Shown piece after piece: positions 5,002-27,370 of a DNA stretch of 64,000 nt (position 1 is the first letter of the stretch; each line of letters opens with the position of its first letter). Both the position numbers and the translations under genes were made by a program. Location: contig DWXV01000024.1 of NCBI GenBank assembly GCA_019119025.1, positions 1 through 64,000 of the forward strand. Direction: 5' to 3'. This stretch comes from Candidatus Allofournierella excrementigallinarum. Lineage in GTDB: Bacteria; Bacillota; Clostridia; Oscillospirales; Ruminococcaceae. The notes beneath the pieces are model-generated. The model saw only the letters and a program-made list of their open reading frames with translations. It did no database searches and was not told where the DNA came from.

Positions 5002-5544
5002 TCAGTGCGGGAACAAGGGAAGTTTTTCCAGATACACGATGTCGGTCCTGTCGGCGGCGTCGCCTTCCGCAAGAACTGCGGCGCGGGCCACCACAGTGCC
5101 GGTGCTGCGGGCCACAAGGCCCTCCAGCGCATGCAGGGAACCGCCGGTGCTGATCACATCGTCCACAATGAGCACCCGCTTGCCGTTCATGGCTTCCAGG
5201 TCCTTGCGGTCAATGACCAGCTTCTGCTTGCCGTTGGTGGTGATGGATTCATCCTCCACGATCACCGGCTCGCTCATGTAAAGCTTTTCAGCTTTGCGGG
5301 CCGGGATATACAGTTTGCCGCTCTGACGGCTCATCTCGTAGGCCAGGGGGATGCCCTTTGCTTCGGCGGTGACGATCACGTCAAATTCCGGGCAGCGCTT
5401 GAGCAGTTCCTCGGCGCAGGCCACGGTGAGCTCCACGTCGCTGAACATGATGAACGCCGCGATGTCCAGATGTTCGTTGATGGCGCAGATGGGAAGCTCA
5501 CGGGTAAGCCCGGCCACATGCAGAGTATAGGTTTTTTGAGACAT
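5002..5544 (-). CDS. Type I phosphoribosyltransferase, adenine PRT-like
   Basis: Likely transfers phosphoribose from PRPP to a purine base (salvage). Of 180 residues, VLIVDDVISTGGS (about 124-136) is the PRPP-binding loop; the N-terminal half has the VIVTAEAKGIPLA segment seen in Apt-like enzymes. The ATG at 5544 follows a strong AGGAGGG. It may be adenine phosphoribosyltransferase or a paralogue; substrate preference cannot be decided here. It is the first gene of the apt-comEC-holA-rnmV run. Confidence 0.8.
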   Translation of the reverse strand: MSQKTYTLHVAGLTRELPICAINEHLDIAAFIMFSDVELTVACAEELLKRCPEFDVIVTAEAKGIPLAYEMSRQSGKLYIPARKAEKLYMSEPVIVEDESITTNGKQKLVIDRKDLEAMNGKRVLIVDDVISTGGSLHALEGLVARSTGTVVARAAVLAEGDAADRTDIVYLEKLPLFPH

Positions 5545-21450: not shown

Positions 21451-21912
21451 TTACTTGCTGCCCGTGAACGGGCCGACCTGGCTCATCGTAAGCTGTTCGC
21501 CCATCTCATCCTGTTTCAACTGGTTCTTTATGTACTCCGCAATTCGGCTCTCGTTTTTCCCTACCGTATCCACATAGTACCCTTTGCACCAGAATTCCCG
21601 ATTCCTGTATTTGTATTTCAGTTCGCCGAATTGCTCATACAGCATTGTGCTGCTCTTCCCTTTCAGGTGCCCCATGAAGCTCGACACCGAAATCTTCGGC
21701 GGTATCTCTACCAGCATGTGGATGTGATCCGGGCATACTTCTGCCTCCAGTATTTTTACTCCCTTCCACTCGCACAACTGCCGCAGGATTTTCCCAATTG
21801 CTGCTCGTTTCTCTTTGTAAAATACCTTCCGCCGATATTTTGGCGCAAAGACTATATGGTATTTGCAAATCCATTTCGTATGCGATAAACTGTTTATGTC
21901 GTTCAAGCTCAT
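21451..21912 (-). CDS. tnpA: IS200-type Y1 transposase TnpA
   Basis: Single-strand DNA transposase, 153 residues, full length for the family. PDHIHMLVEIPP holds the HUH metal-binding motif, and the nucleophilic Tyr lies in GYYVDTVGKNE. There is no accompanying TnpB, so the element is of the minimal IS200 kind. The SD (AGGAGG) is located in the 3' arm of a long hairpin, predicting low translation. The frame is intact, so the element may be active. Confidence 0.95.
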   Translation of the reverse strand: MSLNDINSLSHTKWICKYHIVFAPKYRRKVFYKEKRAAIGKILRQLCEWKGVKILEAEVCPDHIHMLVEIPPKISVSSFMGHLKGKSSTMLYEQFGELKYKYRNREFWCKGYYVDTVGKNESRIAEYIKNQLKQDEMGEQLTMSQVGPFTGSK

Positions 21913-25259: not shown

Positions 25260-25345
25260 TTTCAGCGCCCCTTATCTCACAGTATTTTCGGCCCATCAGG
25301 GATGACGCAGGCCGGAGTTTTGCCCGCCCGCCTGCACAAAAGCTT

Positions 25346-25516
25346 CTACTTTCTCCGCCGCTTTTGAGGGTGGGGCCCGTCTCCTTTATCCGGCCGCTTG
25401 CTTTCGGCAAAGACAAAGGCGGAAAAAACACCCTCCATCCGTTCGGCATACGGCCTGCGGCGGGATGCGCGGAATTCCTTGCCGGCCATGCGGCTTTCTT
25501 CCCTTGCGGCCTTCAT
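25346..25516 (-). CDS. Tiny basic ORF, doubtful
   Basis: ATG at 25514-25516, 56 codons, very rich in Arg/Lys (ends KRRRK). It lies directly after the receiver-kinase fusion gene. In the alternative frame of that gene the stop overlaps this ATG as ATGA, the only positive sign that it is real. The SD is weak. No family recognised; it could be chance. The remaining 25260-25345 holds nothing I can identify. Confidence 0.28.
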   Translation of the reverse strand: MKAAREESRMAGKEFRASRRRPYAERMEGVFSAFVFAESKRPDKGDGPHPQKRRRK

Positions 25517-25525
25517 GGGCCTATT

Positions 25526-26506
25526 TTACCATAGATGCCCGCGTATTCCAACACAAAAACGGCCCCGCCCCTTTGCTGGAGCGGCGAAGTACAGGCCGAG
25601 CCCCAGGTGGCCGCTTTGAGGGCGGCTGGCGTCGCTGGTGAAAAAGGGCTGGTCGCCTTTGGCCAGCGCCCCGGCGGAAAAGCCGGGGCCGGAATCCTCC
25701 ACCGCGATGGAAAGGCGGCCGCCGGCGGCATGGAGGGGCAGGGATATTTCGCCTCCGCGGGGCGTGTAGCGCACCGCGTTGTCCAGCAGGTTGCCCACCG
25801 CCCGGTCAAGGCTGACGCGGTGCACCGTCACGCTGCCCGCAGGCGCGCCGACGCAGTGAAAGGCGATCTGTTTTGCGGCACAAAGGCCCTGGCCGGCGCT
25901 CTGCCAGCCTTCTGCCAGCAGTCGCAGCTCCACCGTCTCTTTCCGTCCCCCGCCCTCCGGCCCGGAAGCGGTCATCGTTCGCAGCTGCGCCACATAGTCT
26001 TCCAGCCGCAGCGACCCCCGAAGGATTGCCTCGACATTCTGCCGCTGGGCAGCGGTAAGCGCGTCCTCTGCCAGAAGTTCCGCGTTGCCGCTGACGATGC
26101 TGAGGGGCGTTTTCAGGTCATGGGTCAGGGCGGCCAGTTCCAGGCTGCGCTGCTGCCTGCGCAGATGGGCCGCCACCCGCGCCCGAAGTTCCGCGATGCG
26201 GAAGGGCTTTGCCAGGTAATCGTCCCCGCCCACGCCCAGGCCGGTGAGCACATCCGCCTCCTGCGTCCTGGCGGTGAGGAACAGGATGGGGCAGTCTGCC
26301 AGGTCGCGGATGCGTCGGCAGAGGGCAAAACCGTCCTCGCCGGGCATCATCACATCCAGCAGGATGCAGTCTGCCCAGCGGCAGGCCGCCCCGTCCACCC
26401 GCCGCCCGTCCCGGCAGGCCGAGACCTGATGGCCGTCCCGTTCCAGAGCGGCCTTGAGCAGCGCGCACAGGTCCCCGTCGTCGTCCACCACAAGGATGTG
26501 TGCCAT
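25526..26506 (-). CDS. Membrane-free receiver-histidine kinase fusion
   Basis: 326 residues from ATG 26506 (GAGGTGA SD overlapping the traX stop). Residues 1-120 are a CheY-like receiver (acidic DDD 8-10, phospho-acceptor D51, T78, K100) joined without a DNA-binding domain to a histidine-kinase core. ALTHDLKTPLS holds His129, NLLDNAVRYTP is the N box, VEDSGPGF the G1 and GHLGLGLYFA the G2 box. No TM or sensor domain. It looks like an OmpR-type regulator fused to the core of its cognate kinase. The last 20 residues do not match the family, while another frame does, so the 3' end may be frameshifted. Confidence 0.75.
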   Translation of the reverse strand: MAHILVVDDDGDLCALLKAALERDGHQVSACRDGRRVDGAACRWADCILLDVMMPGEDGFALCRRIRDLADCPILFLTARTQEADVLTGLGVGGDDYLAKPFRIAELRARVAAHLRRQQRSLELAALTHDLKTPLSIVSGNAELLAEDALTAAQRQNVEAILRGSLRLEDYVAQLRTMTASGPEGGGRKETVELRLLAEGWQSAGQGLCAAKQIAFHCVGAPAGSVTVHRVSLDRAVGNLLDNAVRYTPRGGEISLPLHAAGGRLSIAVEDSGPGFSAGALAKGDQPFFTSDASRPQSGHLGLGLYFAAPAKGRGRFCVGIRGHLW

Positions 26507-26516
26507 CGCCGTCACC

Positions 26517-26852
26517 TCAGTTCAAAAGAAGATACAGCCCCCAGGAGAGGGCGTAGAAAGCATAGACGTGGGCGGGATAAAAGACGTAGAAAAGCGCCTT
26601 GTGCCCTTTGCCCCGCCGGCCATTATACCACAGCATCAGGGGCGCTGCCAGAACGCCGTAGATCTCGTAGTAAATGGTGAACAGCTGGGTCCAGACGAAT
26701 CCCGGCATTTGGGAGTCCATGAAGCCCATATAGACCACGCCATACAGGAGATAATACACTGTAAAGGCAGCCACCTGCACACCCCTGCGCTTGCGGAAGA
26801 GATAGAGCACCAGCCCCATCACCAGCACCGGCCAGCTGCTGTCGCCTGTCAT
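26517..26852 (-). CDS. TraX-family protein, C-terminal part (split gene)
   Basis: 111 residues from the ATG at 26850-26852, whose ATGA overlaps the stop of the N-terminal part. It contains membrane helices and WTQLFTIYYEIYGVLAAPLML, continuing the TraX fold into GLYLLLN. The join is out of frame with the N-terminal part, so this is either a frameshifted traX pseudogene or a two-ORF version kept together by coupling. The gene ends 11 bp before the receiver-kinase start. Confidence 0.65.
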   Translation of the reverse strand: MTGDSSWPVLVMGLVLYLFRKRRGVQVAAFTVYYLLYGVVYMGFMDSQMPGFVWTQLFTIYYEIYGVLAAPLMLWYNGRRGKGHKALFYVFYPAHVYAFYALSWGLYLLLN

Positions 26853-27370
26853 GCCCAGAGAGGCAGCACGGAATAGCAGACAAAACCCGGCAGGCCGGAA
26901 AGCTCCGGGAACGCCATTGCCAGCCAGGTGGCCGCGAAGGGCCAGGCCAGGGGCAGCGCCACCGCCGCGAGGCCGGGCAGCAGCCACTTTTGCCCCAGCC
27001 AGTCGATGCCCTGCCAGACTGCCATCAGGATAACGAAGGAGGTCATCATGCCGTTGGCGGGGAAAAAGCCGTCCGGCCGCACCGGCAATCCCCCGTAGGC
27101 CATGAGATAATACAGCAGCGACATTGCCACAGAGATGGCATAGACCTTCAAAAAATACTTTTTCCGGCTGCGGGTGTGGGTGAAGCCCTCCACCAGGCAG
27201 AACAGGAACAGCGGCGCGCTCACCCGCCCTGCCATGCTGAACCACTCCGGGATGACGCCGGTGAAGCCGAAAAAGCAGTGGATGTGATCCAGCACCATCG
27301 TCACCAGGGCGATCCACTTCAGCCCGGTCTCGGTGATGCCCCCTTTTGGGGCCGGTTGTGTTGTTTCCAT
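26849..27370 (-). CDS. TraX-family membrane protein, N-terminal part (split gene)
   Basis: 173 residues with several TM helices. KWIALVTMVLDHIHCFF and MAGRVSAPLFLFCLVEGF are the N-terminal TraX signature. TraX acylates F-pilin in plasmids; chromosomal homologues are putative membrane acyltransferases. The reading frame stops at TGA 26849-26851, and the expected remainder is in another frame (26517-26852). AGAGGAG precedes the ATG. Together the parts would make about 285 residues, normal for the family. Confidence 0.75.
   Translation of the reverse strand: METTQPAPKGGITETGLKWIALVTMVLDHIHCFFGFTGVIPEWFSMAGRVSAPLFLFCLVEGFTHTRSRKKYFLKVYAISVAMSLLYYLMAYGGLPVRPDGFFPANGMMTSFVILMAVWQGIDWLGQKWLLPGLAAVALPLAWPFAATWLAMAFPELSGLPGFVCYSVLPLWA

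Follow-up and report, generated by a model that had tools for sequence, protein, structure and literature searches.

Hybrid histidine kinases are known to arise through the fusion of histidine kinase (HK) and response regulator (RR) genes; PMC8175716, which cites a Xanthomonas case, describes an origin by stop-codon read-through and the fused genes as evolving. A REC-HisKA-HATPase_c-REC protein is mentioned once in PMC5108060. In the literature found on REC-HisKA-HATPase proteins and on HK-RR fusion, nothing concerned the locus studied here, a minus-strand frame in the window (the whole 64,000-nucleotide stretch of DNA that was analyzed) in which a receiver runs into a kinase core. Like the HK-RR fusion hybrids in PMC8175716, it joins a cognate receiver and kinase in one frame; unlike them, it has the receiver first, both proteins are missing parts, and the locus is decaying. 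The other system of comparison is the pair of an OmpR-family RR and a HisKA HK in the TraX-RR-HK locus of Fournierella, Faecalibacterium, and relatives (L009, L010, and L012-L018), with which the window shares the gene order and the locus within the genus. Compared with that pair, the window has neither a winged helix nor an N-terminal membrane/sensor part, its ATPase domain is missing the C terminus, and only a single frame remains. We consider it highly probable that this frame is the scar of a recent ~1-kb microhomology deletion in an RR-HK pair, which left a nonfunctional remnant.

Read from a GTG, the open frame extends from 26515 to 25526 on the minus strand and encodes 329 amino acids. 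A Shine-Dalgarno-like GAGGTGA lies directly 5' of an ATG at 26506, from which the product begins MAHILVVDDD, and this ATG is likely the start codon, in agreement with the extent of 25526 to 26506 (minus) given by the sequence-only reading; the open frame, the Pfam matches, and the genes of relatives together define this feature as a fused OmpR-type receiver, HisKA, and truncated HATPase. Pfam placed Response_reg at residues 7 to 114 (1.5e-24), HisKA at 123 to 181 (2.6e-12), and HATPase_c at 234 to 310 (2.4e-13). The receiver is complete, its profile being covered from 1 to 110 of 111 positions, whereas HATPase_c is covered only from 4 to 79 of 111, compared with 4 to 109 of 111 in a relative's kinase. 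The sequence-only reading, made before these searches, was thus right that the three domains stand in one frame but overlooked that the third is incomplete, its profile match ending at 79 of 111. Its statement that the winged helix and the membrane sensor are missing is borne out by the domain layout: Pfam found no winged helix in the fused frame, and there is no space left for a sensor. In sequence, the receiver keeps its Asp, and the kinase its H, N, G1, and G2 motifs.

Scanning species genomes brought up close relatives in which each half of the fused frame matches a gene of its own. In Candidatus Fournierella merdigallinarum (L009), the gene order is TraX-like, response regulator, histidine kinase. 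The regulator has about 225 amino acids with receiver and Trans_reg_C domains, and the kinase has 458, with HisKA, HATPase_c, and a hydrophobic N-terminal stretch, a putative membrane sensor; the two genes overlap by 16 bp in different frames. The receiver of the window (26141 to 26512, minus) is 94% identical across residues 2 to 125 to this regulator, that of the closest same-genus genome, and evidently derives from an RR gene. The HisKA and HATPase part (25571 to 26146, minus) derives from an HK gene, with 74 to 76% identity to residues 229 to 433 of the relative's 458-residue kinase (76% for that of L009). When the relative's kinase core was searched against solved structures, the matches were ordinary kinases (SrrB, KdpD, CpxA, and EnvZ), aligned beyond the point at which the kinase of the window is cut. 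The pair is intact at the syntenic site in two of the four other genomes of the genus (G002 and G003), which apparently correspond to the contigs of L009 and L010 and so are not independent of these loci; there the TraX-RR-HK genes are flanked by rubrerythrin on one side and by aminopeptidase P or DAGK on the other. In the other two (G001 and G004) the pair is missing, and rubrerythrin is followed directly by aminopeptidase P. More widely, a TraX-like gene (PF05857) with an OmpR-type regulator and then a histidine kinase behind it appears to form a conserved trio in Fournierella, Faecalibacterium, Flavonifractor, and Oscillibacter-type genomes (3820 to 6711 in L009, 3802 to 6708 in L010, and also in L011 to L018).

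The junction of the two parts falls on CAGCAGCGC (QQR; 26147 to 26155, minus), a 9-bp direct repeat of which each parental gene of L009 carries a copy. The copies in L009 lie at 5036 and 6049, 1013 bp apart, exactly at the junction of the window, which reads CATCTGCGCAGGCAGCAGCGC followed by AGCCTGGAACTGG; the corresponding sequence is CATCTGCGCCGGCAGCAGCGCGCGCCG in the relative's regulator and ATGGAACAGCAGCGCAGCCTGGAG in its kinase. Such a pattern is the hallmark of deletion across short direct repeats. In L009 the repeat is exact, in L010 not, so the deletion inference leans on the closest relative. Since 1013 bp is not a multiple of three and the RR and HK frames differ, a loss of this length puts the kinase frame in register. 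Most probably, ~1 kb was lost between the 9-bp repeats of an OmpR-family RR gene and its overlapping downstream HK gene, which took away the winged helix, the RR stop codon, and the N-terminal membrane/sensor and linker regions of the kinase; replication slippage or microhomology recombination would have been the route. The sequence-only reading had offered an in-frame deletion joining a neighboring regulator and kinase as one of two possibilities, and the intact syntenic pairs, the junction repeat, and the lack of any fused homologue at 80 related loci and in 198 genomes of the family strongly support it. Counting against a deletion remnant, the fusion is in frame, which is expected once in three times by chance, and key receiver and kinase motifs are kept.

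The deletion could alternatively have been created during assembly, with the genome truly holding an intact pair, and the assembly is indeed a draft of 86 contigs. The k-mers that assemblers usually use are longer than the 9 bp shared at the junction, a length too short to mislead an assembler. Moreover, no further copy of the deleted RR and HK segments occurs anywhere in the window's genome, whose assembly is 98% complete, and independent lesions flank the fused frame on both sides. We therefore regard an assembly artifact as very improbable.

These lesions begin at the end of the kinase. After GLGLYFAA, its last ~27 residues, its stop codon, and part of the intergenic region have been lost, and the fused frame consequently runs on into the promoter region of aminopeptidase P, the gene that follows (TTGGAAT...TATGGTAAAAT), where a TAA ends it. 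The tail (25526 to 25579, minus) lies outside the kinase family: the ~17 terminal residues, whose origin the sequence-only reading missed, are read from intergenic/promoter DNA, and the present stop codon is accidental. A second deletion would account for the loss of the end of the ATPase domain. Upstream, the TraX-like gene (26520 to 27370, minus) is frameshifted, with GGG near 26850 in place of GGGG in the closest relative, and reaches a premature TGA; on its own this single-base loss might reflect a sequencing error, which is less likely for the large deletions. On the other side, aminopeptidase P is reduced to a remnant (25275 to 25490, minus) that keeps the first ~43 and last ~15 codons, the middle (~1.1 kb) being deleted, whereas the gene is whole (~425 amino acids) in G001, G003, and G004. 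The nearby rubrerythrin, DAGK, GroES, and GroEL genes are intact in the window. The lesions in the kinase end, TraX, and aminopeptidase P mean that the operon (TraX-like, RR, and HK) and the adjoining aminopeptidase P gene are decaying in the lineage of the window. A complete IS200-type Y1 transposase gene (153 amino acids, PF01797) lies at 21451 to 21912 (minus), ~4 kb from the decayed locus. Between 22120 and 28200, the identity of the window to L009/G002 is ~90% upstream of the junction, 76 to 78% downstream (kinase and DAGK), and then 92% at GroES/GroEL, a drop suggesting that recombination or replacement may have occurred in one lineage.

Within the loci and genomes surveyed, the fused arrangement is confined to the window. 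Among 80 related loci, none has a fused receiver-kinase, and of 198 genomes of the family none but that of the window joins both parts in one frame, so the search for proteins of identical architecture that the sequence-only reading had proposed returned none. A separate downstream kinase is present in 74 of the 80 loci, at a distance from the receiver of at least 658 bp and mostly ~1000 bp, compared with the 12 bp that the fused form would give. No downstream kinase match was found in the other six, three of which lie close to the end of a contig, where little sequence remains. The shortest spacing, 658 bp against the usual ~1000 bp, is that of the regulator and kinase of Candidatus Gemmiger excrementavium (L021, 6001 to 7572), whose kinase may therefore have a shortened sensor.

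The second possibility offered by the sequence-only reading is a genuine soluble phosphorelay switch; a functional soluble receiver-kinase might also act as a phosphate sink for other regulators. The frame is indeed continuous, with receiver and kinase motifs intact through the G2 box, and the ribosome-binding-like sequence precedes its start. However, the same architecture occurs in no homologue at any of the 80 loci or in the 198 genomes, the C-terminal part of the ATPase domain beyond position 79 of 111 has been swapped for intergenic sequence, and the flanking genes are broken as well. A functional switch is unsupported and very improbable. Still less probable, in our estimate, is that the remnant is expressed as a cytosolic receiver-DHp protein that would drain phosphate from, or cross-talk with, other two-component systems. 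Returning to the deletion remnant, the product most likely would be inactive, because the operon and its neighbor are decaying and the product is without a DNA-binding output, a sensor, and a complete ATP-binding domain.

In comparisons with the two same-genus kinases, the dN/dS of the kinase part is low (0.17 to 0.18), which by itself would count against a remnant; the frameshifted TraX gene, however, gives a likewise low value (0.13 against the closest relative). Since TraX is clearly broken and gives similar values, dN/dS and relative-rate counts do not discriminate on selection, and a recent break suffices to explain the low value of the kinase. Low dN/dS despite the lesions suggests that the events are recent.

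Because the neighboring genes are also broken, the locus represents ordinary gene decay, not a new kind of signaling protein. Two other genomes of the genus are without the system entirely. The locus illustrates cleanly how an adjacent regulator/kinase pair can become one in-frame "hybrid" through a short repeat, a product that annotation could mistake for a novel architecture of domains.
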